A stretch of DNA of 64,000 nucleotides from Opitutia bacterium. Lineage in GTDB: Bacteria; Verrucomicrobiota; Verrucomicrobiia; Opitutales; Opitutaceae. Each line of letters starts with the position of its first letter. The first letter of the stretch is position 1. The notes under the pieces were generated by a model, which did no database searches, was not told where the DNA came from, and worked only from the letters and a program-made list of their open reading frames with translations. This document shows, piece by piece, positions 39,688-64,000 of this stretch. Position numbers and translations under genes: made by a program. The stretch spans positions 682,001 to 746,000 of the forward strand of contig JACRHT010000016.1 of assembly GCA_016217545.1 (NCBI GenBank), given 5' to 3'.

Positions 39688-39727
39688 TGGGGAAAAAGAC
39701 GGCGCGCGAGGCCGCGCGGTCACGCGC

Positions 39728-44002: not shown

Positions 44003-45055
44003 TCAGGGCTGCAGCTTGGCCTTCCATGATCGGTAGGCCTTCAGAACGGACCGAGGTTGCTCGGAATACCAGCCGTAGCCGTTCCGGCGCTCGAGTTCGA
44101 TCTCGTTGACATCGTAGTGCACGACCGAGTCACGGCCCATGAACACGGGCCGATCGGTGCCGAGTTCGTAGAACCGCGCCCAAGTGTCCGGCGCGGCGGG
44201 ATCCCTTTCGGCAAAGCGCTCCATGCCCGTCGCCGTGGGCTTCTCGGTCCAGCGGATGCCGTGCACCGGAGTCTTCTCGAACCAAGCGACGGCTGCGTCG
44301 ACGGCGCGGACGATTTCCGGCCACGGCCGCGGCAGGCTCATCAGAAAGTTGACGATCGTGGCGCTCTCGCGACTGGCGATGGAGGGAGGCTCGAACTTGC
44401 GGGCCCAGGCGGGCGCGAACGTCGTTTCATCGTGCTGCGCGCACCACGCGGTGAGTATCCCGTTCTGCACAATCTGGCACTTGAGAATGCAGTCGACGCC
44501 GCGCGCGACGGCAGCGCGGGCTTTCTCGCGGCGCGCGTCATCGACCCATGAAAACGGTTCACTCCCCTCGCCCACCGCGCGCAGGACCTCGAGCACGCGG
44601 ACCATCGCGTCGTCGTTGAACGTGATGTGGGTGTAGTAGCCTTTGCGCAGCGGGAAATACTGCGGCCAGCCGCCATTCGGATATTGCGCGGCGAGCAGGT
44701 AATCGATGCCCCGCTCGGCCGCGGCGCGGTAGCGCGGCTCCTGCGTCGCGACGTAGGAACGGGCGAGGAATTTGATCTGCGTGGTCGTGGCGCCGTTGTC
44801 GATTGTCGCGTCGTCGTGCGCGCGCTCTTCGAGTTCCGCCCGCTCGGCGGACGTGAGCGGCTTGGCCATGTCGATGTTCTTGGGCCAGCCGCCTGACGGG
44901 TATTGGTAGAGCAGCAGGTTCTCCGCAATCGCGCGGCCCTGCTCGCCGGCGAGCCACTTCGCGTCGCGCGGCAGGCGTTCGGACCATTTCACGGACTCGA
45001 CCGCGCCGAGCGGCGCGGCGAGCACGAGGCAAAGCGCGAGGAAGCGGAGCGTCAT
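44003..45055 (-). CDS. pelA: Pectate lyase, PL10 family
   Basis: 350 residues with signal peptide [20 protein letters not shown]10 pattern: '[24 protein letters not shown]', '[28 protein letters not shown]', '[37 protein letters not shown]', '[28 protein letters not shown]' and '[17 protein letters not shown]'. The enzyme cleaves polygalacturonate by beta-elimination, giving 4,5-unsaturated oligomers for GH105. Its start abuts the transporter's stop codon. Secreted or periplasmic. Confidence 0.93.
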
Positions 45056-49114: not shown

Positions 49115-50194
49115 TTATTGGCCGAGGCGGATCATCTCGCGGCCGGCGAGCAGGAAGGCGCCGACGCCGTAGGGTTCGGTGGAGTTTTCGTCGAAGGTGA
49201 CCGGCGTGAAACCAACCGGCTGCACATGCGTGAGACGGCCATCGGGCTTCACACACGCGAGGAGCGCGGACCAGGCTTTGCGGACGGTCGGCTCGAACTT
49301 GGCGCGATCGAGGATTCCCTCGTTGATGCCCCACGCGATGCCGTAGCAGAAGAAACCGGTGCCGCTGCTTTCCTGCATCGGGTAGCTCTGCGGATCGAGC
49401 ATGCTCGCGCGCCAGTAGCCGTCGGGGTTTTGCAACGCGGCGATGCGCTCGGACATCTCGCGGAACTGCTGCACGAATTTCGCGCGTGCGGGATGATCCG
49501 CGGGCATCGCCTGCAACATGCGGACGAGGCCGCCGAGCACCCAGCCGTTGCCGCGCGCCCAGAAAACCTTGGCGCCGTTCTTCTCGAGTTTCGGGAAGAT
49601 GGAGCTGTCGCGGAAATAGAGGCGCTCGCTGCGGTCGTAAAGGTAGTCGGAGGTCACCCACCATTTCGTGACGGCGAACTCGAGATACTTCGCGTCCCCG
49701 GTGAACTGCGTGAGCTTGGCCCACGCGGGCGGCGACATGAAGAGCGCGTCGCACCACGACCAGCGGTCGGTGTGGCCGGGATTCTTCTTCGAATCGAAGA
49801 GGAGGTTGTCGTCCTTTTGGTGCGCGAGGATGTAGTCGAAGCGCTCGCGCATCGGCGCGATCATGCGCGTGTCCTTGGTCGCGCGATAGAGGTCGGCATA
49901 GGTCTGGCCGACCGCGTGGTCGTCGGCGTGGTAGATGCGCTCGCCGAGTTTCCAGGCGTTCCCCTCGCCCATCTTGACCATCGCGTCGCGGAAACGCGGG
50001 CTGGGCGAGACCTCAACCAGCGCCATCACGCCGGCGTAGAACGCGGCGTTGTGCCAGTCGGTGGATTTCCACTTGGGCGCGGGATTGGCGAGCTGCCAGT
50101 CGGCGACTCGCTCCATCACGGTTAAGGTTGATTCGGTGGCCGGCGCAGCGAGCGCCGCAGACAACAGGAACGCGCAACAGAGGAGTCGTTTCAT
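49115..50194 (-). CDS. Secreted GH105-family unsaturated rhamnogalacturonyl/galacturonyl hydrolase
   Basis: 359 residues, signal peptide MKRLLCCAFLLSAALAAPA. GH88/GH105 toroid: 'ADWQLANPAPKWKSTDWHNAAFYAG', 'NPGHTDRWSWCDALFMSPPAWAKLTQFTGD' (Asp of 'CDALFM' at the catalytic place), 'VFWARGNGWVLGGLVRML', 'DPQSYPMQESSGTGFFCYGIAWGINEGIL'. It removes the unsaturated uronate from lyase products as a keto-acid that cyclises to 5-keto-4-deoxyuronate. Distinct from the GH105 half of the neighbouring fusion, so two specificities are likely. 6 bases after the DUF4861 stop. Confidence 0.9.
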   Translation of the reverse strand: MKRLLCCAFLLSAALAAPATESTLTVMERVADWQLANPAPKWKSTDWHNAAFYAGVMALVEVSPSPRFRDAMVKMGEGNAWKLGERIYHADDHAVGQTYADLYRATKDTRMIAPMRERFDYILAHQKDDNLLFDSKKNPGHTDRWSWCDALFMSPPAWAKLTQFTGDAKYLEFAVTKWWVTSDYLYDRSERLYFRDSSIFPKLEKNGAKVFWARGNGWVLGGLVRMLQAMPADHPARAKFVQQFREMSERIAALQNPDGYWRASMLDPQSYPMQESSGTGFFCYGIAWGINEGILDRAKFEPTVRKAWSALLACVKPDGRLTHVQPVGFTPVTFDENSTEPYGVGAFLLAGREMIRLGQ

Positions 50195-50200
50195 GCGGAA

Positions 50201-51412
50201 TCAGTTCGGGGTGAGGGTAACGGAAACAGGGGCGCGCGCACGCGCGGCGGCGTTGGCGACGTAGTCTTTCCAAGCCTGGTAAGTGGTGAACTCGCCGGCC
50301 TTGGACCAACCGGCGCCGGCGAAGTAGCGGAGCGATTGGCCCGCGGCGACCTTGGCGAGCACGAGTTGGTTGCGATCGTCCTCGGCGAAGCCTTGGAACG
50401 CGTCCGAGGCGACGAGGATTGCGGTGCCGAGCGCGCCGTTGGTCTTCTGCTCGACCCATTGCGTGATCGAGCCGTCGGCCGGTGTGGGCGTCGTCGCGAT
50501 CTTCGGCTCCTGGCCTTTGTCAGCGGGCGTCTTGTTCAGGCCGATGCCGATGACGACTTCCTTCGCACCGGTGATCTGGAAGGTGCTGTCGATCTGATCG
50601 AGATTGTGCCCGGCATCGACGGTGAAGCGCTTAACCTCGGAAACCATCACGCCGTTGGCCATCCACGTGTCGTAGGTGAGCTCGAAGATCGCGCGGACCG
50701 GACCATTCGCGATGACCTTCCACGATTTGTAGTTTCGGCCAACCCAGAGCGTCTTGCCGTCCCACACGCCGAGGCCGCCGCAGCCGCGCGACGGGCCGAC
50801 GTTATACATGTCCATGCCCTCGCCCTCGTCCTTGTGGTAGTGGTCGTGGCCCTTGTTATACCAGCGGTCAACGATCGGGTAGCTCACGCGCTTGCACCAG
50901 ATGTCGAGGCCGCTGGTGACGAGCACTTCCTTGGCGGCACCGTCCGCCGGAGCGGCGAGCGCGGGGCCGTAGGTGCGGTGTCCGATCTTGTCGTTTTCCC
51001 AGGCGAAGTCGTCGAGCCGTTCGGGCACGTAGCGCGCGAAGGCTTTTGAAGGAAACACGGGCGCGACGGTCTCGGTTTTCTCGACGGTGAACGTCGCGCT
51101 CTTCTCGCCGGCGGCGAAGTCGTGCTGGAAGATCAACTCGCCGTAAGCGATCCCCTCGCCTTTCGGATCCTTGGCCTGCGGGGCGACGTTGGTGACTTGG
51201 TAAGGGAGAACGTTGCCTTGCGCGTCCTTCACCGCGATGCGCTGCAGCAACGCGCCGGGGAGGTGTTTGTTGATCTCGGACCACGGGACGGTGATCGTCT
51301 CGGACGGGCGGGCGATGTCCAACGCGTGCGTGACGGTGAGCGTGATTTTCTCAGCCGCCAGCAGCGAGCTCGACAGCAAAGCGAGCCCGACGAACAGGAG
51401 TTGGGGTTTCAT
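50201..51412 (-). CDS. Secreted DUF4861-domain protein
   Basis: 403 residues from the ATG at 51412, signal peptide MKPQLLFVGLALLSSSLLAA. The mature chain starts 'ITLTVTHALDIARPSETITVPWSEI' and carries 'YNKGHDHYHKDEGEGMDMYNVGPSRGCGGLGVWDGKTLWVGRNYKSWKV' segments, rich in His/Asp/Glu and typical of DUF4861. Function is not established from sequence; the tight gap to the GH105 gene (6 bases) and place between kduD and GH105 indicate pectin-oligomer processing, perhaps of branched rhamnogalacturonan. A palindromic repeat precedes it. Confidence 0.8.
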   Translation of the reverse strand: MKPQLLFVGLALLSSSLLAAEKITLTVTHALDIARPSETITVPWSEINKHLPGALLQRIAVKDAQGNVLPYQVTNVAPQAKDPKGEGIAYGELIFQHDFAAGEKSATFTVEKTETVAPVFPSKAFARYVPERLDDFAWENDKIGHRTYGPALAAPADGAAKEVLVTSGLDIWCKRVSYPIVDRWYNKGHDHYHKDEGEGMDMYNVGPSRGCGGLGVWDGKTLWVGRNYKSWKVIANGPVRAIFELTYDTWMANGVMVSEVKRFTVDAGHNLDQIDSTFQITGAKEVVIGIGLNKTPADKGQEPKIATTPTPADGSITQWVEQKTNGALGTAILVASDAFQGFAEDDRNQLVLAKVAAGQSLRYFAGAGWSKAGEFTTYQAWKDYVANAAARARAPVSVTLTPN

Positions 51413-51455
51413 GGAAATTTGGGAAGGAGGCGGGAACTCAGAAAACGAACCGAGG

Positions 51456-51546
51456 AACCACGAATGGACACGAATGAACACCAATGGTCGTGAGGCGGGC
51501 AGCGTTTCGCTCCCATTCGTGTCCATTCGTGTCCATTCGTGGTTTC
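51456..51546. repeat. CACGAAT palindromic intergenic element, copy 3
   Basis: Left arm 51456-51486 (AACCACGAAT, GGACACGAAT, GAACACCAAT) and right arm about 51513-51546 (ATTCGTGTCC, ATTCGTGTCC, ATTCGTGGTTTC) around a 26-base centre. It lies between the kduD stop (51556) and DUF4861 start (51412), ending 9 bases from the stop. Confidence 0.88.
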
Positions 51547-51555
51547 CACTTCGCC

Positions 51556-52323
51556 TCAGCGCGCGAGCCAGCCGCCGTCGACGGCGATCGTGTAGCCGTT
51601 GACGTAGTCGGACGCGGAGGACGCGAGGAAAACCACGGCACCCTTCAAGTCGTCGGGCGTGCCCCAGCGGCCCGCGGGGATGCGATCGAGGATGGCGGCG
51701 GAGCGCTTCTCGTCGGCGCGGAGCGGCGCGGTGTTGTCGGTCGCCATGTAGCCGGGCGCGATCGCGTTGCAGTTGATGCCCTTCGACGCGAGCTCGTTGG
51801 CGATGAGGCGCGTCAGGCCTTGCACGGCGCTCTTCGACGCGGTGTAGGACGGCACGCGGATGCCGCCTTGGAACGAGAGCATCGAGGCGATGTTGATGAT
51901 CTTGCCCGTGCCGCCGCGCGAGACGACGTCGTTGCAGAACGCCTGGCTGAGGAAGAACACGGCGTCGATGTTGATGCCCATTACGTCGTCCCAGTCCTTC
52001 TCGGAGAACTTCACGAAGTCCTCGCGGCGGATGATGCCGGCGCAGTTCACGAGGATGTCGAGCGCGGGGAACGTCTGCTTCGCGGTGGCGATGACTTGCG
52101 GGATCGACGCGCGATCGCCGAGGTTGCCGACGACGGCGACGGCTTTGCTGCCGAGCGCCTGCACCTGCTTGACGGTGTCGTCCGCGGGCAGGATGTCGAC
52201 GGCGACGATATTCGCGCCGGCTTCAGCGAGTGCGAGCGCCATGCCTTGACCGAGGCCGCGCGCGGCGCCAGTGACGACGGCGGTTTTTCCGGTGAGTTTG
52301 AAGGAGTCGAGGATGTTGCTCAT
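51556..52323 (-). CDS. kduD: 2-Dehydro-3-deoxy-D-gluconate 5-dehydrogenase
   Basis: 255 residues, classical SDR and close to KduD over the whole length: 'FKLTGKTAVVTGAARGLGQGMALALAEAGANIV', 'CAGIIRREDFVKFSEKDWDDVMGINI', 'IINIASMLSFQGGIRVPSYTASKSAVQGLTR', 'GINCNAIAPGYMATDNTAPLR'. Catalytic Ser/Tyr/Lys are in SMLSFQGG and YTASK. It reduces 2,5-diketo-3-deoxygluconate to KDG using NADH. It follows kduI with 27 bases between. Confidence 0.94.
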   Translation of the reverse strand: MSNILDSFKLTGKTAVVTGAARGLGQGMALALAEAGANIVAVDILPADDTVKQVQALGSKAVAVVGNLGDRASIPQVIATAKQTFPALDILVNCAGIIRREDFVKFSEKDWDDVMGINIDAVFFLSQAFCNDVVSRGGTGKIINIASMLSFQGGIRVPSYTASKSAVQGLTRLIANELASKGINCNAIAPGYMATDNTAPLRADEKRSAAILDRIPAGRWGTPDDLKGAVVFLASSASDYVNGYTIAVDGGWLAR

Positions 52324-52350: not shown

Positions 52351-53181
52351 TCAGCGCAGCGTCGCGATCGGCGCGGGATCCATGTCGGCGAAATCCTGAT
52401 TCTCGCCGCCCATGCCCCAGATGAAGCCGTAACTGTCGGTGCCGGCGCCGCTGTGGATCGACCACGGCGGGGAGAGAACGGCTTCGTGGTCGCGGACGAC
52501 GAGGTGGCGCGTCTCGTCGGGCTTGCCCATGAAGTGCATGACGGCGGCGCTGTTGGGGATGTTGAAATACATGTAGACCTCGGAGCGGCGCGTGTGCGTG
52601 TGCGGCGGCATCGTGTTCCAGATGCTGCCGGGCTGGAGGATCGTGAAGCCCATGACGAGCTGGCAGCTCTTGATGCCGCCGGCGTGGATGACCTTGTTGA
52701 GCCGGCGATCGTTCGCAGTGGCGGCCGCGCCGAGCGCGACGGCGTTGGCTGCGTCGTAGCGCGCGAGCGTCGTCGGGTAGGCGGCGTGCGCCGGATAGCT
52801 CAGCAGGTAGAACCGCGCGGGCTTCGTGGCGTCGGCCGAGGCGAACGAAATCGCCTGCGCGCCGCGGCCGACGTAGAGCGTGTCGAGGTTGGCCATCGCG
52901 TAGCGCTGGCCGTCGACGGTGACCGTGCCGTCGCCGCCGGTGTTGATGACGCCGAGTTCGCGGCGCTCGCAGAAAAATGCGGAGCGCAACTCCGCGGCGG
53001 CGGAGAGCGGGAGTTCGGCCGCCAAAGGCATAGCGCCGCCGATCACCGTGCGGTCGGTTTCCCAATAGCGCAGCGTGAGCTTGCCGGGTTGATACAGGTC
53101 CGTGACGAGGAACGCCTCGCGCAAAGCGGAGGTCGACATCGAGCCGTAGGTGCGGACGTCAGCAGCAGGGATCAGATCCAT
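52351..53181 (-). CDS. kduI: 5-Dehydro-4-deoxy-D-glucuronate isomerase
   Basis: 276 residues, normal length. The two-cupin KduI pattern is evident: 'RYWETDRTVIGGAMPL', 'FFCERRELGVINTGGDGTVTVDGQRY', the metal site 'MPPHTHTRRSEVYMYF' (His, His, Glu) and 'PPWSIHSGAG' (His), then 'WGMGGENQDF'. It isomerises the keto-uronate released from unsaturated oligomers. First gene of the 14-kb minus-strand pectin run; a candidate IclR operator lies 68-100 bases upstream of its ATG. The leader between contains a run of 8 G (plus strand) at 53211-53218. Confidence 0.94.
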   Translation of the reverse strand: MDLIPAADVRTYGSMSTSALREAFLVTDLYQPGKLTLRYWETDRTVIGGAMPLAAELPLSAAAELRSAFFCERRELGVINTGGDGTVTVDGQRYAMANLDTLYVGRGAQAISFASADATKPARFYLLSYPAHAAYPTTLARYDAANAVALGAAATANDRRLNKVIHAGGIKSCQLVMGFTILQPGSIWNTMPPHTHTRRSEVYMYFNIPNSAAVMHFMGKPDETRHLVVRDHEAVLSPPWSIHSGAGTDSYGFIWGMGGENQDFADMDPAPIATLR

Positions 53182-53248: not shown

Positions 53249-53281
53249 GTTCGCTAATGAACTATCGGTTCATTTATGAAT
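53249..53281. promoter_or_regulatory. Candidate IclR/KdgR-type double operator upstream of kduI
   Basis: Two dyads, GTTCGCTAATGAAC (53249-53262) and GTTCATTTATGAAT (53268-53281), centres 19 bp apart. The same arrangement with 25 of 33 bases identical is at 60078-60110 next to the iclR-family gene. Each dyad has the form TTCA-N4-TGAA (one mismatch in the first). It lies 68-100 bases before the kduI ATG. Assignment to the regulator is inference. Confidence 0.6.
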
Positions 53282-53332
53282 TTTGCCGCCTTTTGCGGCA
53301 AGCGCGAATTCCTCCAAAATCGGGAAAGAGCA

Positions 53333-53348
53333 CCCCTCATTCGAGGGG
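53333..53348 (-). terminator. Possible terminator of the receptor/pectinesterase unit
   Basis: CCCCTC (53333-53338) pairs with GAGGGG (53343-53348) around ATTC, about 45 bases after the pectinesterase stop. The T-run on the minus side is weak (GCTCTTTCC). Confidence 0.4.
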
Positions 53349-53391
53349 TTGGCGGGAGCCGCAGCGAGGCGAGCGTCGTTCTCATCGTCGA

Positions 53392-54360
53392 CTACCGGCC
53401 GCTCGCCGTCGGGTCCCAGGCATCCGCACCGCCGAGGACTGCGGCTGGCGTGTAGGAAGCCGCTTCGTCCGATGTGAGCTGGTGCGCCCAAGCCACGCGC
53501 GCGGCCGGCGCACCGCCCGGGCCGGTGCTGGCGAATTCGCCGTAGAACGTGGTCTTCTCGGCGTCGGGCTTGTTCCAGTTGTGCCAGCCCTCGGGACGCA
53601 CGTTGGCGGACATCTCGGTGTGAAGGAACACGGTCTTGGCGAAGTTGCGCCACGGACGGCCGAGGTAGGTTTTCGCGCCCTCCGCGCCAGTGACCTTGCA
53701 ATGGGAAAATACGTAGCCGTGCGCAGAGCCCTGCGGTGTCGACGCCGCGGTCAGGTAGCCGTCGCGCAGCGCGTGGATGTGGCAGCGCTCGAACCAGACC
53801 GTGGCGGCACCGAAGATGAAGTCGACGTGCCCCTCGATGTAGCAGTCCTCGAAGTAGTGGCGCCCGCGGTTGACGAGAATCGTGTCCTGCCAGCCGAGGA
53901 AGCGCACGCGGCGGAACTCGAGCCGGTCGCCGTCGGCGCGCAGCGCGAGGGCCTGGCCGACCGGACCCGCGGTGTTGGCGAGAGTGATGTTCTCCCACTG
54001 CATGCCGTCACCATCGATCTGCACCGTCGGTGTGCGGAACGTGCCGAGCGGTTTGCCGTCGGGGCCGGGCAGATTCGCATGGACGTTGAACTCGACGACC
54101 GTCTTCTCCGCGTCGTCGCCGACGATGCGCATCAGGCCGCGCTCGCGTTGCACGTAGATGCGCTCGTGGTAAGTGCCGGGCTTCACGCGAATGGTCCAGC
54201 GCGGCTGGGTCGAATCGGTGCGCATGGGCGCGGAGCTGATGGCGTCCTGCAACGACGTGTAATTGCCACTGCCGTCGAGCGCGACGACGGCGTCGGCTTT
54301 GATTTCACCTGCGTGAGCGAGCAGTGCGAGGGCCGAGAGCGCGAGAAACGAGCGGAGCAT
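53392..54360 (-). CDS. Pectinesterase, CE8 family
   Basis: 322 residues with signal peptide MLRSFLALSALALLAHA. CE8 right-handed beta-helix: 'VVALDGSGNYTSLQDAI', 'IRVKPGTYHERIYV', 'QALALRADGDRLEFRRVRFLGWQDTILV' (Gln and Asp of the site), 'CYIEGHVDFIFGAATVWFERC' (catalytic Asp in VDFIFG) and 'YLGRPWRNFAKTVFL' (Arg of LGRPW). It removes methyl groups from pectin so that GH28/PL10 can act. Its start is 1 base after the receptor stop, hence one transcription unit. Confidence 0.94.
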   Translation of the reverse strand: MLRSFLALSALALLAHAGEIKADAVVALDGSGNYTSLQDAISSAPMRTDSTQPRWTIRVKPGTYHERIYVQRERGLMRIVGDDAEKTVVEFNVHANLPGPDGKPLGTFRTPTVQIDGDGMQWENITLANTAGPVGQALALRADGDRLEFRRVRFLGWQDTILVNRGRHYFEDCYIEGHVDFIFGAATVWFERCHIHALRDGYLTAASTPQGSAHGYVFSHCKVTGAEGAKTYLGRPWRNFAKTVFLHTEMSANVRPEGWHNWNKPDAEKTTFYGEFASTGPGGAPAARVAWAHQLTSDEAASYTPAAVLGGADAWDPTASGR

Positions 54361-54361
54361 G

Positions 54362-56551
54362 TTAGAACAGGAGTCGAGTGCTGAAGGTGAGTTCGCGACC
54401 GGCGCCGAGGCGCGCGTTGCTGGCGACGAGGTCGCGGTCGAGGAGGTTGCGGATGCCCGCCTCCACTTCGAAAGTGCGCTTGGGCGTGCGCCAGGAATAG
54501 CCGCCGCTGGCGTGCAGCAGGCCGTAGCCGGGGTATTTCAAGAAGGTCCGGCGCGCATCGGCATAGTTCGCGACGTAGTTGCTGAGGTATTGTCCCGTCG
54601 CGGCGAAGAACGGTCCGCCCTTCGGGCCGGGGCGGCGGTAGCGCAGCTGGCTGTAAGCGGTGAGCGCCGGCAGGCGCGAGATGGCGCGTCCGATTTCCTG
54701 CGGCAGGTCGGGTGACGCAGTTGTGATCGCCTCCATGGCGACCACGCGCGTCGAGAAGGCAACGGCGGGATTCACCTGCCAGCGCACCTCGGCGCGGCCG
54801 CCGCGGTAGCGCTCCTCGCCCGCGGCGACGAGCTGCGGCTGCGTCTGGTTGGCGTCGAACACCGGATCGTCGTAGAGCGGGTTGCGGCGGGAAATGTGTT
54901 GGTTGTAGAGAACGAAACCGCTCGCGCTGAACTCCACGGCGCCCCGCTTCGAGCGTCCCTTCAAGCCGGCTTCGTAACCGAGCGTCGTCTCGTTGTCCTG
55001 GATGCGCCCGGTGCGCGAGTCGACGCGGGTCGACGGATCGAACGCCGTGCTGAGACTCGCGAACGCGAGCAGACGGCTGGGCTTCAGCTGCCAGTTGAGT
55101 CCGGCGTGATAGCTGACCTGCGACGCGCGGTCGCTGACGTGCGGGAAGAGCGCGGCGGGTTTGCGATCCTCGACGTGCAGCGAAACGCCGTCGTAACGCA
55201 GGCCCGTGGAAACGACGTAGCGGCCGCGCTGGAACGCCGCGCGATCGCTCAGCTCGAATGCGGTGTAGCCGGCGTATTCGGTGCGATCGTTCAGGATGCG
55301 GCTGAAGACGGCGGGATCGTAATCGGGGCGATAGTAGTCCGGCGCGTAGGGATTGAACTTCCGCACGGAGAGCGGGAGCGCGTCGCGCGCGGACGTCGGC
55401 AGCGCGCGGTCTTCGCGGCCGTATTCGCCCCACGTGTGGCTGCCGGAGGCGAGGAGCTTGTGCTCGGCGCCGAACGCGCGGAAGCGGTTGGTGAGTTCGA
55501 GCTGCAACGCGTAGGCGTGCTGCGGCTGCTCGATGTGGCGCGGCTCGCGCGTGCCTTCGAAGAGGCCGGTGTCGAGCGAGAGCACCGAGGTGGTGAAGCG
55601 GTCCTGCACGACGTCGCGCCACCACCCTTCCGCGTTGGCGCGGATGGCGAGCGTCTTGGTTGGGGCGCCATCGAACTGCACGCCGAGCACGGCGGCGCGG
55701 CGACGGATCGCAGCGTCGGGGCCGTTGGCGTTGAACTCCGCGAGCGGCAAATACGGGCCGGCGATCAGGCCGCCTTTGGGCCGATACTCGGGAATGCCCG
55801 GCGTGACGCGCGCGCGGATCTCACGGTAATCGGCGGAGACGAGCGTGCTGGCGGAGCGGCCGTGGCGCCACGTGACGGACGTGCTGACGGAAAGCGTTTC
55901 CTCACGGGTGAATTGTTCCGGGCCGGTGCGCCGCTGCCAATCGACGGCGAGGCGCTGCCAGAGTTTCTTTTTCACCAGCGGGCCGGTCGTCTCGAGCTGC
56001 GCGCGCTGGCGGTCGAGCGAGGTGAATTGGACCTCGGCGCGCTGGCGGTCCTTCGCCTGCGGGCGCGCGGTTTGCATGTCCTGGATGCCGCCCGGGGCGG
56101 CGCGGCCGAGGACGGGGACGAGCGGCCCTTGAATGACGACGGTGCGGGCGGTGTTGAGCGCGTCGTTGATGCCGAGCTGCGCAAAACCGTTGCGCATGAC
56201 CGGCGTGGGGAAGCCGCGGAGGTTGAGCCGCTCTTCGCCCGTGATGCGGTCGGCGGGCGACGGAGTGCCGACGGCGTTGAGGTCGGCGCCGAGGTCGGAC
56301 GCCATGTTCTCGTCGAGCTGCGTATCGACCGGCTTGATGAGGTCGTTGGCGAACGGCTCGTCGCGCATCTGTTCGTCGAGCGAGCCCATGCCGGTGGCGT
56401 CGTAGCCTTCGTCTTCGCTGGTCGCGGTGACGGCGAGCGGATCGAGTTTGAGGATCGGATCGACGATTGGCGCGGGCGCGGCGGTTTGCGCGACACCGAA
56501 CGGTGCGGTGAAGCTCAGAAGGACGAGAGCGAGAGCGGAGCGAGCGGACAT
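54362..56551 (-). CDS. TonB-dependent outer-membrane receptor (siderophore-receptor-like type)
   Basis: 729 residues from the ATG at 56551 (signal peptide MSARSALALVLLSFTAPFGVAQ). 'LDPLAVTATSED' is a TonB-box-like region, the plug follows ('LNLRGFPTPVMRNGF', 'VVIQGPLVPVLGRAAPGGIQDM'), and then a beta-barrel with alternating hydrophobic strands to the terminal Phe ('GRELTFSTRLLF'). The overlap with the pectinesterase unit (1 base apart) suggests uptake of pectin fragments rather than iron. An in-frame extension upstream (56686) is not preferred because it places a terminator hairpin inside the reading frame. Confidence 0.88.
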   Translation of the reverse strand: MSARSALALVLLSFTAPFGVAQTAAPAPIVDPILKLDPLAVTATSEDEGYDATGMGSLDEQMRDEPFANDLIKPVDTQLDENMASDLGADLNAVGTPSPADRITGEERLNLRGFPTPVMRNGFAQLGINDALNTARTVVIQGPLVPVLGRAAPGGIQDMQTARPQAKDRQRAEVQFTSLDRQRAQLETTGPLVKKKLWQRLAVDWQRRTGPEQFTREETLSVSTSVTWRHGRSASTLVSADYREIRARVTPGIPEYRPKGGLIAGPYLPLAEFNANGPDAAIRRRAAVLGVQFDGAPTKTLAIRANAEGWWRDVVQDRFTTSVLSLDTGLFEGTREPRHIEQPQHAYALQLELTNRFRAFGAEHKLLASGSHTWGEYGREDRALPTSARDALPLSVRKFNPYAPDYYRPDYDPAVFSRILNDRTEYAGYTAFELSDRAAFQRGRYVVSTGLRYDGVSLHVEDRKPAALFPHVSDRASQVSYHAGLNWQLKPSRLLAFASLSTAFDPSTRVDSRTGRIQDNETTLGYEAGLKGRSKRGAVEFSASGFVLYNQHISRRNPLYDDPVFDANQTQPQLVAAGEERYRGGRAEVRWQVNPAVAFSTRVVAMEAITTASPDLPQEIGRAISRLPALTAYSQLRYRRPGPKGGPFFAATGQYLSNYVANYADARRTFLKYPGYGLLHASGGYSWRTPKRTFEVEAGIRNLLDRDLVASNARLGAGRELTFSTRLLF

Positions 56552-56594
56552 CGTGCGAAAACTAGCGGGAAGCGAGGGCTCCCCAAAGAGAAAA

Positions 56595-56621
56595 GTCCGC
56601 CAGGATGTTGGCCTGGCGGAC
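56595..56621 (-). terminator. Intrinsic terminator of the frameshifted TonB receptor gene
   Basis: GTCCGCCAGG (56595-56604) pairs with CCTGGCGGAC (56612-56621), a perfect 10-bp stem with a 7-base loop; the minus strand then reads TTTTCTCTTT. It lies 67 bases past the receptor stop at 56689. Confidence 0.88.
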
Positions 56622-56688
56622 CTCCCCTGCGGCGCGAGCCCACGAAGACCCGCGCCGCACCGTGTTGGCTGATGCCAATGCGGCAATT

Positions 56689-59600
56689 TTAGAAGGTGCC
56701 CTTGATGCCGAAGGAGAAGTTCACACCGAACTCTTCCCAGCGGAAACCGCGGGCGTAGCCGGGCGTATCCGGGTTGAAACGTTCGATGACCTGCTCCTTG
56801 TTCAGGACGTTGCGGGCGGCGGCGAAGAAGGTGAAGTGCTTGTTGAGCTGGTATTCGCCGCTGAGATCGAGATTCCAGCGCGGCTGGTAGTATTCGAAGA
56901 AGCCGGTGGTGGTGCCGTATTGCGCACCGGTCTGGATCGCGGCGGCGGTGGCGGACGTGCCCTTTTGGCGACCGCGGAAGTTCATGTTCGCGTTCACCAC
57001 CCAGGGCTTCTTGGCGAAGCTGAGGCTGAAGTTGCCGGTCTTGGAGATGAAGCCGCGGAAGTCAGGCGTGTTGTCGCCCGAGAGGTGCAGGGCCGTGCCG
57101 TTGGCCTTGACCGTGAAGTAGCGACCCCAGCCCGGGAGGAACTTGAGCGGCTGGATGACGCTGAATTCCCAACCGCTGACCTTGGCGTCGCCCCCGTTGA
57201 TCGTCGTGTTGACGGACCAGCCGACGTAGCGGGGATCGATGCCGAGTTCCTGCGCGAGAGCGGCGTCGACGACGCCACCGCGCGTTTGTCCAGAAGTCGC
57301 TGAGGTTTTTCTGGAAGGCGCCCACGATCATCTGGCCGCCCTTTTCCGGATAGTATTCGAGGGACAGGTCGAAGTTGTTCGCGGTCCAGGGCTTCAAGCC
57401 GGTGTTGCGGATGGTGAGCGAACCGGCCGCGGTCGGGTCGGTGTCGTTCTCGTCGATGGTGGTCGCGGGAATGATGTTCGCGTAATCCGGGCGGCCGAAG
57501 GTCTTCGCGTAAGCGGCGCGGAGGAGGAGGTTGTCGCGGATTTCGTAGGTGAGGTGCAGGCTCGGGTAGTAACCGTCATAGCTGCGGTCGGCCCTATAGC
57601 CGCGCTCGATGAGGGTCATGCCGAGTTCCTGCATCGTCGTGGTGGTGAACGTGCCCGTGGTGACGCCGCCCGTGCCCACGACGGTGCCGCTCGGGGTCTG
57701 GGTGTTCGTGGTGGTCGTCGCGCCCGCGGGGCCGGCAGAGGCCTTGCGGACGTATTGGATGCCGGCGAGCGTCGGATTGCCGTCGACGAGCGTGCCGTCG
57801 GCATTGCGCTCGAAGAGGACTTCGAAGCCGTTCTTCAGCGCGCCCTGGCCCTTGTCGTTAGTCTTCTCGTAACGGACGCCGCCGACGAAACGGAGCTTGC
57901 CGCGCAAGAGGCGGCCATCGATCTGCGCGTAGTAGGCGGTGACGCGCTCGGACATCTTTTCCGAGTTGTTGATGCGGTTCGTCTCGTTGGTGACGGCGTT
58001 CGTGGTGAAGTAGCCGGGGTTGGAGCGATAGACTTCGGCGAGCAGGTAGGGATTGATCCACTGGATCGACTTGGAGCCGAAACCGGAATCGCTGCCCTTA
58101 TAGACGGTGTCGAGGAAAGCACCGGCGTTGTCGTCGGCCGTGTTGGAGACGCCGTCGGCGCCGACGTAGGTGTAGGACTCGGAATAGCGGCGATTGTCGC
58201 GGCCTTCCTCGCGGACTTCGCCGCCGAACTTCACGTTGACCGGAATGGTCCAGGAATCGAAGTGGCGCGCGACGTTCACGTGGCCGCTCTTCATGGTGGC
58301 CTTGCCGTCGATCGGGTCGTTCGAGGCGGTGGTGAGGCGGAAATTGTTCAGGTTGTAGGGATCGAGCACGTTGCCCGAGGCGTCCTTCGCCGTGATGTTC
58401 ATGCCGCCGGGGAAGTTGAAGCCATCGGCGCGCAGGTTGGTGACGCCGACGAGGCTCGTGCCGACGTTGGCGAAGTGCCCGCGGGCGAGCGCGCGATACC
58501 AAGTGCGCGACTGGACGCCGTTGACGCCGGCATCGACATCCCACTCCGCGTTGTTCCATTTCCAAACGATGTTGCCGGCGGAGGTGTTGCCGAGCTTGTC
58601 GCGGAAGGAGCTGCCCTGGGTGACCGAGCCGCGGCCGGACGCCGCCTGCACGAAGTCGGAGCCCCAGGAGATCGGCGTGCCGGTGTTGGTGCTCGGGGTG
58701 CCGCTGGTGCCCATGTTGAAGTTCAGGTTACGATTGCCGAAGAAGGTCTTGTAGTAGTTGTCCTGGTAGGCGACCGAGAGCGTCTGGTTCTTCGTGAGCT
58801 TCCAGTCGGCCTTGATGCCGATCGAGGCGCGATTGGTGGTCTTGGGACCGTCCTGAATCTGCCATTGCTGCATGTAGGGGTTGGACGGTGTCGCGGCCGT
58901 GAGCGTGGTGGCGGAGCCGCCGGCGGGCGTGTAGGTGCCGCCGCCCTGCTGGAAGTTCCACGTCGGCTGCCAGCGATGCTGTTCGACGTGCTGATTGGAC
59001 GAGAGTCCAGTGATGACGAGGCCGAAGCGGTCGTTGACCGGCAGCGTGTAGTCGAAATCGAAATTCGGGAGCACCTTGAACGTCTTCTTCACGCCGGGCC
59101 CGGGCGTCTTCTGGAGGATGTCCATGTTCTCCGAATTCATGTTCATGTAGACGCGGTAATTGAACTGCGCGCCTTTGCGCTCGAACGCGTTCTTCGAAAT
59201 GAAGTTCACGGCACCGCCGAGGGAGTCGGCCGGGATGTCGGGCGTCGGCAGCTTGATGATTTCCGTGCGGGAGGTGTTGTTGATCGAAACCTGCTCGAAC
59301 TCGAACACGCGATTGCTGCTGCCCGACGCGGAGGAAGTCAGGCGCATGCCGTCCCAGTAGACGTTGGAGAAATTGGAAGCGAAGCCGCGAACGGAAACCG
59401 TGCGCACGTCGGCGGCGACGTAATCGACCGAGACGCCGGGCAGGTATTTGAGGAACTCGCCGGGATTGCCCTCGTTGACCGCACCGAAAGCGTCGGCCGC
59501 CATGACGACCTTCACGTTGGGAGCGTAGCGCTGTTCGTTCGTCGCGAGCGCGTTGCCTTCGTATTCGCGGTTGGACTGCACGACGAAGGTGTCGAGCTGC

Positions 59601-60016
59601 ACGACCTTGTCGTCGGTCTTGCCGTAGCGGTCCGCGCTCGTGAGTTCAAAATTCAGCGTGGTGCTTTGGCCGGCCGCGACCGTCACGGACTCGGATTTCG
59701 GATCGAGACCGGTATAGACGACTTTGACGGTGACCGTTCCCGCCGGGAGGTCCGCGAAGCGATATTCGCCGAACTCGTTCGTGAACGTTTCGCGCGTGGT
59801 GCCGTCGACGGTGACGCGGGCATTGTTCAGGTAGCGGCCGGTGCCGACGTTCAGCACGCGACCGGAAATTTCGCCCGCCGCCTGGGCAAACGAAGGCACT
59901 GCGAGCACGGCCATCAGAGCGAGGCCGGCGAGCCAACGCCCCAGCGGGGCGCAGCGTAGGAATCCACGGACAAAGCCGGCAACAACGTGCCGACGAGCAG
60001 TCGGGGTGGGTAGCAT
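56689..60016 (-). pseudogene. Large TonB-dependent receptor, frameshifted near the C-terminus
   Basis: Start at 60016; about 1109 residues if the shift is corrected. Signal peptide to about residue 46; a carboxypeptidase-regulatory-like beta domain ('ISGRVLNVGTGRYLNNARVTVDG'); plug ('GEFLKYLPGVSVDYVAADVRTVSVRGF'); then a 22-strand barrel. At about 57295-57303 the frame changes: 'QKNLSDFW' leads into junk, whereas the next frame continues 'GQTRGGVVDAALAQELGIDP'...'PGWGRYFTVKANGTALHLSG'...'FSFGIKGTF' to the stop at 56689. Reading GACTTCTGG as a 2-base loss from a TTCTTC repeat would restore the usual DFFG. Read as a pseudogene or a sequencing error; the rest looks intact. Probably the main pectin-oligomer receptor. 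Confidence 0.85.
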
Positions 60017-60077
60017 AGGGTGGGGGGTGGTAGGTTTTAGCTCAGCGAAAAAAGGGGAGCTGGGGAATTTCGCTGAA

Positions 60078-60110
60078 GTTCACTAATGAACTTGCTATTC
60101 AATGGTGAAT
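60078..60110. promoter_or_regulatory. Candidate double operator in receptor/iclR intergenic region
   Basis: GTTCACTAATGAAC (60078-60091) and ATTCAATGGTGAAT (60097-60110), centres 19 bp apart; both perfect TTCA-N4-TGAA dyads. It lies in the middle of the 156-bp gap, 62-94 bases from the receptor ATG and 63-95 from the iclR GTG. Sister site at 53249-53281. It fits a two-dimer IclR-family operator controlling both directions. Confidence 0.65.
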
Positions 60111-60172
60111 GTCGTTCGCTTTGGCAATAAAATTCTCCCCCGTGCGCGACTCGCCGCGCATGATCTTCTCTG

Positions 60173-61006
60173 GTGAAACCCGCCCCCTATCCCACCCGCC
60201 CCGCCGCCTCCCGGACAACGTCGCCCGCCTCCGACGCCGAGCGCTACGTCATCCCGAATCTCCGCAACGCCTGCCGCATCCTCAAGCTGCTCGGCCGCTC
60301 CACCGAGGGCTACAAGGTCGCGGACATCGCCCGGGAGCTGAAAATCCCCGTGACGACCACGCTGCGCATCATGAGCACGCTCACGCTCGAGGGGCTCGCG
60401 CGCAAGGTCGACAGCCGCTTCGAGCTCGGCCCGGTCCTCATCCAACTTGGTAACGCCGCTCTCTCCGGCACCGAGATCCGCGAACTCGCCCAACCTGTCC
60501 TGCTCAAGCTCACTCAGGTAACCGACGAGACCGCGCACCTCGCGATTCCCTGCGACGACCGTTCGCTCATCGTCGCCGTGCAGGACAGCCTGCACCCGCT
60601 CCGCGCCGCCTCGCGCCCGGGCTTCCTCGCCGAGCTGCACTGCTCGTCGACGGGCAAGACCTTCCTCTCGTTCCTGCACTACGAGCGCCTCGCGGAACTC
60701 TTCCCCTCCTCCGCCAAGCCCACCAAGCGCACCCCGCGCACGTTGACGACGCTCGCGGAAATTCGCCGCGAAATCGAAGCGACGCGCAAGCGCGGCTACA
60801 GCCTCGACGACGAGGAGTTCAATCCCGGCGTCCGCTGCCTCGCCGCGCCGGTCTACGCCTCCGACGGCAAAGTCGCCGCCGCGATCGGCATCACCGCCGC
60901 CACGGTTCGCTTCACCCGCGAACGCATCCCCGAGATGGGCGCGCACGTGATGGCCGCCGCCCGCGAACTCTCCGAACACCTCGGCTACCGCGGCCAGGAA
61001 TCCTGA
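60173..61006 (+). CDS. IclR-family transcriptional regulator (KdgR-like role)
   Basis: 277 residues from a GTG at 60173 (MKPAPYPTRPA as translated). N-terminal winged helix about 25-85 ('CRILKLLGRSTEGYKVADIARELKIPVTTTLRIMSTL'), then the IclR effector domain ('LRAASRPGFLAELHCSSTGKTFLSFL', 'KRGYSLDDEEFNPGVRCLAAPVYASDGKVAAAIGITAA'). IclR regulators of uronate pathways (KdgR) respond to 2-keto-3-deoxygluconate; the same effector is inferred here from the neighbours. It is followed by the LarA-like gene after 1 base, so they share a transcript. The long Pro/Ser-rich N-terminal tail is unusual. Confidence 0.9.
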   Translation: MKPAPYPTRPAASRTTSPASDAERYVIPNLRNACRILKLLGRSTEGYKVADIARELKIPVTTTLRIMSTLTLEGLARKVDSRFELGPVLIQLGNAALSGTEIRELAQPVLLKLTQVTDETAHLAIPCDDRSLIVAVQDSLHPLRAASRPGFLAELHCSSTGKTFLSFLHYERLAELFPSSAKPTKRTPRTLTTLAEIRREIEATRKRGYSLDDEEFNPGVRCLAAPVYASDGKVAAAIGITAATVRFTRERIPEMGAHVMAAARELSEHLGYRGQES

Positions 61007-61007
61007 C

Positions 61008-62303
61008 ATGTCCGACGCGCCCTACCGTTCCCTCGCTCCGTCCGGCCAGTCGCTCAGCGACGACACCGTGCGCGACCTCGTCGCTCGCGCCTGCCCCGCC
61101 GCCAACTACCGCGGCAAGCGCGTGTGCCTCATCATCCCCGACGGCACGCGCACCGCGCCCGTCGGCCTGATGTTCAAGACGCTCTTCGCGCAACTCGCGG
61201 GCGCCGTGAGGAAATTCGACGTCATGATCGCCCTCGGCACGCACCCAGCGATGACCGACACCGCCATCAACGAACGCGTCGAAATCTCCGCCGACGAACG
61301 CGCCTCCACCTACCGCGACGTCGAGTTCATCAACCACGAATGGGACAACCCCGCCGCGCTCCGCGATCTCGGCTGCATCCCCGCCGAGCAGATTCGCGAA
61401 CTCTCCGGCGGTCTCTTCGCGATGGACGTGCCCGTGCACGTCAACAAGCGCCTCTTCGACTACGACGAACTCATCATCGTCGGACCGGTCTTCCCCCACG
61501 AGGTCGTCGGCTTCTCCGGCGGCAACAAGTATCTCTTCCCCGGCGTCGCGGGTCCGGGCATCTTGAATTTTTTTCACTGGCTCGGCGCCGTCGTCACGAA
61601 CCCGATGATCATCGGCAACAAGTGGACGCCCGTGCGCAAAGTCGTCGATCGCGCCGGCGCCCTCGTCACAGTGCCGAAGCTCTGCTTCGCGATGGTCGTG
61701 CAGGGCAAGGGCGACCTCGCCGGCCTCTTCGCCGGCACGCCCGAGCAGGCATGGGATGACGCCAGCGAACTCTCGCGCCAGCTCCACATCACTTACAAGG
61801 ACCGCCCGTTCCACACCGTGCTCAGCTGCGCGCCCGCGATGTATGACGAACTCTGGGTCGGCGGTAAGTGCATGTATAAACTCGAGCCGATCGTCGCCGA
61901 CGGCGGCGAGCTCATCATCTACGCGCCGCACATCCACGAAGTCTCCGTCGTGCACGGCAAGATGATCGAGCGCATCGGCTACCACTGCGTGCAGTATTTC
62001 CTCAAGCAGTGGGACAAGTTCCAACACGAGCCGTGGGGCACCCTCGCCCACTCCACCCACGTGCACGGCATCGGCACCTACGACGAGAAAACCGGCATCG
62101 AGACGCCGCGCGTGCGCGTGACGCTCGCGACCGGCATCCCCGAGGCCACCTGCCGCAAGATCAACCTCGGCTACCGCGACTGGCGCACGATCAAGAAAGA
62201 GGACTTCGCCAACCGCGAACACGAGGGCGTTTTCCTCGAGCCGAAGGCCGGCGAACGCCTTTACCATCTCCGCCAGAAGCCCAAGTGGGCCGGCGGCGAG
62301 TGA
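61008..62303 (+). CDS. LarA-like nickel-pincer racemase/epimerase
   Basis: 431 residues. The LarA N-terminal pattern is clear: 'LIIPDGTRTAPVGLMFKTLF' (Asp, Thr, Arg), 'IALGTHPAMTDTAI' (His), and 'VGPVFPHEVVGFSGGNKYLFPGVAGPGILNFFHW' segments holding His, Lys (which binds the nickel-pincer nucleotide in LarA) and His. In lactate racemase such residues hold an NPN cofactor made by LarB/C/E, none of which is in this window. Relatives racemise or epimerise other 2-hydroxy acids, including malate and aldonates. In an IclR-controlled pectin unit, an aldonate or uronate-derived hydroxy acid is the likely substrate; this is inference. Confidence 0.82.
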   Translation: MSDAPYRSLAPSGQSLSDDTVRDLVARACPAANYRGKRVCLIIPDGTRTAPVGLMFKTLFAQLAGAVRKFDVMIALGTHPAMTDTAINERVEISADERASTYRDVEFINHEWDNPAALRDLGCIPAEQIRELSGGLFAMDVPVHVNKRLFDYDELIIVGPVFPHEVVGFSGGNKYLFPGVAGPGILNFFHWLGAVVTNPMIIGNKWTPVRKVVDRAGALVTVPKLCFAMVVQGKGDLAGLFAGTPEQAWDDASELSRQLHITYKDRPFHTVLSCAPAMYDELWVGGKCMYKLEPIVADGGELIIYAPHIHEVSVVHGKMIERIGYHCVQYFLKQWDKFQHEPWGTLAHSTHVHGIGTYDEKTGIETPRVRVTLATGIPEATCRKINLGYRDWRTIKKEDFANREHEGVFLEPKAGERLYHLRQKPKWAGGE

Positions 62304-62494: not shown

Positions 62495-63130
62495 ATGAAC
62501 AAGTCCGAAGTCCTCGCCCGCATCAAACAAGAGAAGGTCATCGCGCTCATCCGCGCCGACGGCCCCGACAGTCTCATCGACTGCGCCCGCGCCCTCGCCG
62601 CCGGTGGCCTCACGGTCATCGAGCTCACGATGTCCACGCCCGGCGCGCTCGACGTGCTCGCCAAGGCCGCGAAGGAGCTCCCGCACGTGACCTTCGGCAT
62701 GGGCACCGTCGTCAACGCCGAGACCGTCGCGCAGGCCCAGGCCGCCGGGGCGAAGTTCATCGTCACGCCTTGCGTGCGCCCCGCGGTCATCGCCGCCTGC
62801 AAGGAGCGCGGCCTCGCCATCCTCGGCGGCGCGCTCACGCCGACGGAAGCCTACAACACCTACGAACTCGGCGCCGACGTCGTGAAGGTCTTCCCCGCCG
62901 AGTTCTTCGGCCCCGCCTTCATCAAGTCCCTCAAGGCCCCCTTCCCCTTCCTGAACGTCATGCCCACCGGCGGCGTCACACCCGAGACCGTCGCCGATTT
63001 CCTCAAGGCGGGCGCCTACGCCACCGCCGCCGGCAGCGCCCTCGTGCAACCCGCCGCGCTCAAGGCCAAGGACTGGGCCGCGATCACGCTCCGCGCCAAG
63101 GAATTCGTCGCCGCCGCCAACAAGGCCTGA
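62495..63130 (+). CDS. eda: 2-Keto-3-deoxy-6-phosphogluconate / 4-hydroxy-2-oxoglutarate aldolase
   Basis: 211 residues. 'VIALIRADGPDSLIDCARALAAGGLTVIELTMSTPGAL' carries the catalytic Glu of 'VIELTM'; 'FGMGTVVNAETVAQAQAAGAKFIVTPC' and the Schiff-base Lys131 in 'GADVVKVFPAEFFGPAFIKSL' follow, then 'VMPTGGVTPETVADFLKAGA'. It splits KDPG into pyruvate and glyceraldehyde-3-phosphate, the exit of the pectin pathway. It is 191 bases after the LarA-like gene, with no clear signal in the gap, and is followed by uxuA. Confidence 0.95.
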   Translation: MNKSEVLARIKQEKVIALIRADGPDSLIDCARALAAGGLTVIELTMSTPGALDVLAKAAKELPHVTFGMGTVVNAETVAQAQAAGAKFIVTPCVRPAVIAACKERGLAILGGALTPTEAYNTYELGADVVKVFPAEFFGPAFIKSLKAPFPFLNVMPTGGVTPETVADFLKAGAYATAAGSALVQPAALKAKDWAAITLRAKEFVAAANKA

Positions 63131-63154: not shown

Positions 63155-64000
63155 ATGCAAACCGCCTTCCGTTGGTATGGTCACTCCGACCGCGTGCCGC
63201 TGCTCTGGCTGCGGCAAATGACGCCGCGTCCGCTCGTCGTCACGCACCTCGCGCACATCCCGCCCGGCGAAATCTGGCCGGTCGAGGACCTGCGCCGGCT
63301 GCGTGACGAACTCGCCGAACAGGAACTCGCTCTCGGCCCGATCGAGAGCGTTTTCTGGACCGACGACATGAAACTCGGCCGCGGCGACCGCGACCTGCAC
63401 ATCGAAAACTACATCCAGTCGCTCGCGAACATCCGCGCGGCCTTCCCCGACGCCGGCGAGATCATTGTCACGTATAACCTGATGCCGCTCGACTGGGGCC
63501 GCACCGAACTCGCGCACCTCCACCCCAACGGCACGCGCGGTCTCGCCTACGATCACGCCGCGATGGCGCGCATCGACCTCTCGCACGGCCTCTTTCTCCC
63601 CGGCTGGGGCCGCCGCTACAGCCGCGAAGAATTCAGCGCGCTGCAAAAAGCCTACGCCGATCTCGGTGCGAGCGGCTTCTGGGAAAACGTCCGCTACGCG
63701 CTGAAAGCGATCATCCCCGCCGCCGCCGCGAGTAACATCCGTCTCGCCGCGCATCCGAACGACCCGCCGTGGTCCTACCTCGGCCTCCCCGCGTTTCTCT
63801 GCAACGCCGCGGACATCCGCCGCCTGCTCTCGCTCTACCCGCACCGCTCGAACGCGCTTTGTTTCTGCACAGGTTCCTACGGCGCCGATCCGGCGAACGA
63901 CATCGTGGGCATGATCCGCGAGTTCAAGGACTCCATCGCGTGGGCGCATCTCCGCAGCGTGAAAACGACCGCGGAAAAAACCTTCCACGAAGCCGACCAC
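63155..64000 (+). CDS. uxuA: D-Mannonate dehydratase, N-terminal part (cut by right edge)
   Basis: The frame from the ATG at 63155 stays open to the window end, giving 282 residues of a protein normally about 390. 'FRWYGHSDRVPLLWLRQ', 'PPGEIWPVEDLRRLRDEL', 'SVFWTDDMKLGRGDRDLHIENYIQSLANI', 'ITYNLMPLDWGRTEL'-like segment and 'RLAAHPNDPPWSYLGLP' match UxuA. The visible part ends 'SVKTTAEKTFHEADH', where UxuA has its metal-binding motif. It dehydrates mannonate to KDG. 24 bases after eda, same transcript. Confidence 0.93.
   Translation, partial: MQTAFRWYGHSDRVPLLWLRQMTPRPLVVTHLAHIPPGEIWPVEDLRRLRDELAEQELALGPIESVFWTDDMKLGRGDRDLHIENYIQSLANIRAAFPDAGEIIVTYNLMPLDWGRTELAHLHPNGTRGLAYDHAAMARIDLSHGLFLPGWGRRYSREEFSALQKAYADLGASGFWENVRYALKAIIPAAAASNIRLAAHPNDPPWSYLGLPAFLCNAADIRRLLSLYPHRSNALCFCTGSYGADPANDIVGMIREFKDSIAWAHLRSVKTTAEKTFHEADH

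Follow-up and report, generated by a model that had tools for sequence, protein, structure and literature searches.

Pectin breakdown and the metabolism of 2-keto-3-deoxygluconate (KDG) are controlled in gamma-proteobacteria by the KdgR regulon, i.e., by an IclR-family protein and palindromes with TGAA/TTCA-like arms. According to PMC8688573, KdgR is released by KDG with positive feedback, and Table 1 of PMC8222616 prints its consensus as RWWGAAACGNCGTTTCAKKA, i.e., as one inverted pair. For the IclR family in general, the latter source distinguishes two motif groups and describes tandem sites 18-22 base pairs (bp) apart as well as three-box sites; its taxon table lists no Verrucomicrobia, and the string 'verrucomicrob' is absent from the text searched. 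Among the papers listed by our searches on IclR/KdgR regulons and on pectin use in Verrucomicrobia/Opitutaceae, titles and abstract openings mention no such regulon. Here, we describe two operator-like sites in a 64,000-nucleotide stretch of an Opitutaceae genome (contig JACRHT010000016.1; in the following the window), which likewise combines an IclR-family gene with genes of pectin breakdown and KDG metabolism. Judging from sequence comparison, the adjacent IclR protein very likely reads both sites and would thereby turn most of the pectin pathway on or off together.

Two double-dyad sites and their linkage to iclR orthologs

The two sites are located as follows.

53249-53281, minus strand: operator A, upstream of kduI, with dyads at 53250-53261 and 53269-53280
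60078-60110, no strand: operator B, between the large TonB receptor gene and iclR, with dyads at 60079-60090 and 60098-60109

Operator A reads GTTCGCTAATGAACTATCGGTTCATTTATGAAT and operator B reads GTTCACTAATGAACTTGCTATTCAATGGTGAAT. When read directly and recounted, both 33-bp sites lie where the first-pass annotation had placed them, and 25 of their 33 bases are identical in an ungapped alignment. As it had also described, each site holds two TTCA-N4-TGAA dyads whose centres are separated by 19 bp, where the first dyad of site A shows one mismatch (TTCG), and the distances to the start codons of kduI (ATG 53181, 68 bases), the TonB receptor (ATG 60016, 62 bases) and iclR (GTG 60173, 63 bases) are correct. 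The dyad centres, however, are separated by 1.8 helical turns rather than by the "about two" given before. The mismatched G of site A is conserved at the kduI sites of three further genomes of the genus (G040, G133, G163), and the dyad of operator A nearer kduI is of the CTAATGAA type.

We searched for the double dyad with the 31-bp pattern TTCA-N4-TGAA-N7-TTCA-N4-TGAA. With up to three mismatches, it is found twice in the window compared to 0.08 expected occurrences, and 0/100 shuffles reached a count of two; the earlier impression that no other intergenic region of the window carries the motif is correct for the double dyad. Single dyads, on the other hand, are frequent (19 with up to one mismatch vs. 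10.4 expected), such that it is the pairing of dyads that counts. Within the whole genome (5,094,286 bases), the double dyad occurs at two places with zero to one mismatches, at none with two and at four with three. Sites are not scattered over the genome. The expectation that they would precede pectin and uronate genes including a KDG kinase held for the former, since both places do so, while no separate site precedes the KDG-kinase-like gene, which instead comes fifth in the iclR run.

The two sites were also recovered by a sequence-only model trained on iclR-adjacent sites from other genomes. Its alignment comprised 32 of the 38 such sites with up to two mismatches, i.e., we excluded those of the window genome, of its nearest relative (G040) and of L083, L116, L126 and L127. 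Some training sites sit in iclR-kduI spacers, while separate kduI sites are not part of the set. With 150 of 227 first-look candidates scored in the window genome, the model finds site B with an E-value of 1.4e-8 and site A with 1.0e-5, and its sole further match (E 1.43) covers part of site B, read from the other strand. With the matrix, the two sites score 52.0 and 40.5 bits, compared to at most 3.6 bits in ten Markov sequences of 64 kb, each scanned on one strand.

A lone dyad with the exact sequence TTCGCTAATGAAC was seen on another contig of the genome (C12:685830-685842). It was rejected as a real site because its 13-base pattern occurs at chance level, i.e., with four matches as for the reversed control (both strands). 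By eye only, the open frame behind it is oxidoreductase-like.

To relate site and regulator, we ran two separate searches, one using the IclR protein and one using the motif, on 200 genomes drawn from the larger set of the same family. Ortholog loci were picked by protein and fetched regardless of the motif; E-values up to 2e-49 resulted in 54 places, of which 53 were scanned (the remaining one, in G173, is a partial match below the 150-bit tblastn limit), and L038 was dropped as a duplicate of a contig of equal length (27,324) in G132. For the close orthologs (at least 57% identity, n=41), we scanned 300 bases before and 60 bases after the estimated start. The best double dyad shows 0, 1, 2 and 3 mismatches in 20, 13, 6 and 2 loci, respectively, i.e., 39/41 have a site with up to two mismatches. 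This was the case for 0/4000 random 360-bp windows of the fetched loci (6 with three mismatches; this control kept a distance of more than 1 kb to any site), and shuffled upstream regions gave 2/2650 with three mismatches and none lower. The distance from the end of the site to the estimated start is 41-90 bases in 36/41 loci; for the others, it is 141, 193 or 252 bases, or the site overlaps the start (two loci). Sites with up to two mismatches precede orthologs in 15 genera, and the receptor-iclR spacer is the location of the site in other genera too. Among 12 more distant relatives, 1, 2, 3, 4 and 5 mismatches are observed in 1, 2, 1, 6 and 2 cases, respectively.

The motif search gave matches with up to one mismatch in 52/200 genomes. 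Such a site is present in 37/41 genomes that have a close ortholog compared to 15/159 without (Fisher p-value 1e-23, which ignores shared ancestry; genome lists were compiled by hand). No match of the reversed control pattern was found in the 200 family genomes. A longer pattern, applied to 162 genomes from other families of the order, matched none with up to two mismatches and five genomes with three; its sensitivity is moderate, given that it recovered 3/5 close-ortholog family genomes in that draw besides the window genome. The site-regulator pairing thus recurs in dozens of related species. Together with the two-place match in the genome, this linkage supports, at the level of sequence, the proposal of a single regulator for the catabolic run, the receptor and itself.

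We also sorted by hand the neighbours of the 54 sites with up to one mismatch in the 37 ortholog genomes. All but one (53/54) adjoin an iclR ortholog, a TonB receptor gene or a pectin/uronate gene, where one of the 53 overlaps the start of a short-chain dehydrogenase/reductase (SDR) gene; the 54th precedes an immunoglobulin (Ig)-repeat protein that is interrupted by the contig end. Genes adjoining sites comprise iclR, kduI, receptors, SDR, DUF4861, GH88-family and 2-keto-3-deoxy-6-phosphogluconate (KDPG) aldolase genes (the latter in G175 and G113) as well as giant Ig-repeat pectate-lyase proteins. Given these neighbours, the receptors probably import pectin products. Another 16 sites are found in 15 other genomes; 4 of them lie beside a giant pectate-lyase protein, a distant iclR, a receptor and an SDR gene whose product is 34% identical to KduD, while the remaining 12 have no such neighbours and several are inside open frames. 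For kduI, we scanned 600 bases upstream (shorter at contig ends; 37 + 51 regions, which are a subset of the kduI matches, with one 168-base piece, L213, left out). Sites with up to two mismatches are found for 14/37 regions from ortholog genomes and for 2/51 from elsewhere, and both of the latter come from genomes with distant IclR relatives (G144 36%, G013 48%).

The regulator itself belongs to the IclR family based on PF09339 (31.5 bits, cut-off 22) and PF01614 (138.7 bits, cut-off 24). It reaches no curated NCBIfam cut-off, i.e., the best-scoring model, BhcR (NF045644), gives 171.5 bits with a cut-off of 350, and the KdgR equivalog model NF011671 gives 112.3 bits with a cut-off of 275. Among its relatives of solved structure are IclR-family proteins, KdgR entries and TtgV. 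Its recognition-helix stretch is PVTTTLRIM. Residue 60 is V in 37/41 close orthologs and R in 12/12 distant ones, whose sites differ; this split could result from shared ancestry.

Operator anatomy and proposed regulation

The consensus of the 32 iclR-adjacent sites is TTCACTAATGAACTTGnnATTCATATTTGAAC, with arms 4 bp apart as in both window sites. When dyad pairs (up to one mismatch each, up to 60 bp apart) are collected from the 41 ortholog upstream regions, a spacing of 19 bp is found in 34 loci, while 53 bp and 59 bp each occur at a single locus. The dyads of a pair are not alike. One, TTCACTAATGAAC, is nearly invariant, while the other is approximately TTCATATTTGAA; information peaks across the whole distal dyad and drops in the centre. 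The operator is also polar: the CTAATGAA-type dyad is located on the side away from iclR in 32/34 iclR sites (the remaining 2 have it on neither side), and 18/23 other sites carry it next to the gene (2 of the 18 on both sides). This count uses 34 of the 38 iclR-adjacent sites and a handmade list of 23 others, which does not include every site.

Beside this polarity, a TTG element (mostly TTGCC, -35-like) ahead of the site in catabolic direction is new. At the two window sites, it is found at

53296-53301, minus strand: TTGCCG, -35-like, starting 21 nt before operator A in kduI direction; putative promoter part
60122-60127, minus strand: TTGCCA, -35-like, starting 18 nt before operator B in receptor direction; putative promoter part

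A TTG beginning 18-21 bases before the site is present for 27/38 iclR-adjacent sites (18 times as TTGCC) and for 15/23 others. In six other bins of equal width, the respective numbers are 0-3 of 34 iclR-adjacent and 0-1 of 18 other sites. These 34 + 18 sites constituted our first count, and the nine sites outside of it all have no TTG. A stretch GGCAAC..AAAAT beside iclR sites was considered as iclR promoter and discarded, since similar GGCAA-like stretches are found on the gene-distal side of kduI-only, receptor-only and DUF4861 sites; given this location, we read them as TTGCC on the opposite strand. At 60141-60162, a terminator-like stem was reported but disregarded, since shuffles average 0.4 such stems.

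The location of the TTG element 18-21 bp before a polar site suggests a repressor that lies over the promoter. Our preferred reading is that both sites are operators of the IclR encoded at 60173-61006, to which we assign, from sequence, a probability of roughly 0.8. Two IclR dimers would bind side by side on each operator, one per 12-bp dyad and 19 bp apart. From the two sites, IclR would control three runs, i.e., the kduI run (11 genes), the two receptor genes followed by pectin esterase, and its own iclR run. The TTGCC-type hexamer would serve as -35 of the catabolic promoter, with the operator starting about 12-15 bp past the hexamer end, such that the -10 region would fall inside the weaker dyad and transcription would start in or just past it. 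IclR would thus probably act as a repressor covering -10 and start, and a pathway intermediate, most likely KDG, would release it.

Several observations weigh against this reading. Within the scanned upstream regions, 23/37 kduI genes of ortholog genomes have no site with up to two mismatches (our guess is that these genes are located within longer runs), and 8 of the 14 kduI sites found are common iclR-kduI spacers, i.e., only 6 are separate. For G096, a genome of the same genus with a site before a giant pectate-lyase protein, the search at E 1e-15 gave no IclR match. Among the 23 other sites, 1 carries the strong dyad solely on the far side and 4 have it on neither side. The TTG element is absent from 11/38 iclR-adjacent and 8/23 other sites, among them the divergent ones of G020 and those preceding the aldolase. 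Scans for the sigma-70 promoter consensus were negative at both window sites. Furthermore, the -10 is not fixed (spacers of 14-21 give on average 1.4-2.6 matches to TATAAT), and the promoter model is therefore built on the TTG element. Since the regulator scores below the curated KdgR cut-off, KDG is proposed as ligand by analogy.

A composite, family-specific switch would go further. It would consist of a polar four-box operator with 4-bp arm spacing, the strong dyad on the gene side and the weak dyad serving as -10, where stepwise loss of the weak-dyad dimer would result in graded induction of receptor, pathway and regulator, and residue 60 would mark the change of operator. We regard this combination as doubtful and slightly lowered our estimate because TTG is absent from all nine sites outside the first count.

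Regulon and regulator would stay the same if IclR was an activator, or both, which binds beside the polymerase when the ligand is present. Some IclR-family proteins, e.g., PcaU and PobR, are activators, and activators usually bind at or upstream of the -35. Here, the operator is located about 12-15 bp past the TTG hexamer, so bound protein would cover -10 and start, provided that the promoter, which is itself putative, is assigned correctly. We thus consider activation unlikely, although no convincing -10 was found and PcaU and PobR are listed with three-box sites in PMC8222616.

The binding unit may also differ, i.e., a single dimer could bind the central TGAA-N7-TTCA (KdgR-like, group 2) with the outer boxes being accessory. 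The inner arms are indeed 7 bp apart as in the group 2 consensus TGRAACAN1-2TGTTYCA published in PMC8222616, which also describes three-box sites mixing both arrangements. But the sites lack the inner ACA/TGT bases of group 2, their information content peaks over the entire distal dyad and declines in the centre, and in several distant relatives one dyad is intact and its partner degraded, which renders a central dimer improbable compared to the paired dimers of our preferred reading. The relatives concerned include L113, L117, L118 and L120 (42-45% identity), where one good dyad, e.g., TTCAAATATGAAC, is located near the gene's own start. A single dyad may therefore be either the precursor of the double operator or its reduced form.

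We consider it very unlikely that the sites belong to another regulator, i.e., to a second IclR (C17:282989-283465) or an unrelated factor, and that the adjacency of iclR is coincidental. The genome does encode this second IclR_C protein, with another KDPG aldolase gene roughly 11 kb away, and for the site in G096 no ortholog was found; yet no double dyad with up to three mismatches lies by the second IclR gene, while the site precedes 39/41 close orthologs of the adjacent IclR, in 36/41 at the 41-90 bases given above. Chance resemblance of two palindromes, which could be argued for just two sites in one genome, is refuted by the shuffles, the genome scan and the sites with up to two mismatches before orthologs in 15 genera.

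Gene runs probably controlled from the two sites

Leftwards of site A, a run of 11 genes starts with kduI:

52351-53181, minus strand: kduI, 5-keto-4-deoxyuronate isomerase
51556-52323, minus strand: kduD, 2-dehydro-3-deoxygluconate 5-dehydrogenase
50201-51526, minus strand: DUF4861 / BT3233-family polysaccharide-utilization protein
49115-50194, minus strand: glycosyl hydrolase family 88 (PF07470) protein
46498-49092, minus strand: fused PF07470 and GH28 protein
45056-46501, minus strand: major facilitator superfamily transporter; closest to a D-galactonate transporter model, whose cut-off is not reached
44003-45055, minus strand: pectate lyase (PF09492)
43171-43959, minus strand: SDR, nearest to mannonate oxidoreductase, below cut-off
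41246-43063, minus strand: UxaE tagaturonate-epimerase family protein
39728-41146, minus strand: UxaC
38617-39723, minus strand: alginate-lyase family PF05426 protein

Leftwards of site B, two TonB receptors are followed by pectin esterase:

56692-60016, minus strand: large TonB-dependent receptor, which has a frame break near 57289 in the present assembly
54362-56686, minus strand: second TonB receptor-like gene; weakly similar to siderophore receptors, below cut-off, start uncertain
53392-54360, minus strand: pectin methylesterase (PF01095)

Rightwards of site B, the iclR run comprises

60173-61006, plus strand: iclR, 277 amino acids, HTH_IclR and IclR_C
61008-62303, plus strand: LarA-like nickel-enzyme homologue; closest to the model of a putative hexonate epimerase, whose cut-off is not reached
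62495-63130, plus strand: KDPG/KHG aldolase (eda type), third in the run
63155-64000, plus strand: start of the uxuA gene for UxuA mannonate dehydratase, which continues past the window end
C16:746280-747377, outside the window: PfkB-family KDG-kinase-like gene, fifth in the run; KDG kinases are among its NCBIfam matches, none of which reaches the cut-off

Gene direction and short gaps suggest that each run is one transcript. The two sites precede genes for most of the steps that lead from pectin to pyruvate.

The large receptor shows one frame change at about 57289, while the nearest relative (G040) has a single open frame of 1085 amino acids for the same stretch; either an assembly error or a real break may be the cause. 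For the second receptor-like protein (54362-56686), no Pfam match was found. The gene between iclR and the KDPG aldolase belongs to the LarA-like nickel racemase/epimerase family, for which a role in uronate or aldonate epimerization is our guess. Elsewhere in the genome, the second IclR-family gene and the second KDPG aldolase span C17:282989-295244, and the genome scan found no double dyad with up to three mismatches near that IclR gene; they possibly form a separate regulon.

In three genomes of the genus, giant proteins of 2475-3162 amino acids are encoded directly behind an operator (L138 9893-17320, L143 9923-19411, L140 553-10041). Those of L138 and L143 carry 9 and 13 Ig domains, respectively, plus pectate lyase domains; the Pfam scan covers G096 and G116, and the G149 protein has the same length as that of G116. 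The genome scan of the window genome, which gives only the two sites, shows no operator before such a protein.

A palindrome pair seen by eye thereby becomes a testable regulon over most steps from pectin to pyruvate. The 31-bp matrix can be used to find further pectin-response genes in relatives, e.g., the giant Ig-repeat pectate-lyase proteins.

Comparison with known systems

BhcR, which provides the best NCBIfam model for the regulator, is the regulator of the beta-hydroxyaspartate pathway, yet the protein stays under the BhcR cut-off. TtgV (structures 2xrn/2xro) is a distant sequence match (E 1.3e-9); it binds as a tetramer to two adjacent palindromes and controls an efflux pump. For this tetramer binding, TtgV is also cited in PMC8222616. 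With the tandem group 1 sites described in that source, the operators share TTCR/YGAA-type arms, and their 19 bp fall in the 18-22 bp given there. The arm spacing differs, i.e., the four printed subgroups show 5-6 bases (17-18 bp palindromes) compared to 4 here, where the difference depends on the alignment.

With regard to KdgR, the operators hold two TTCA-N4-TGAA dyads instead of a single inverted pair, and the KdgR-type box (GAAAC..GTTTC pair) does not appear in the consensus of the 32 sites. Furthermore, only two sites are present here, the regulator gene is itself a member of the regulon and has a site, and the likely targets include TonB receptors. That is, the system is of a known kind, an IclR/KdgR-like local regulon, with a somewhat unusual polar operator.

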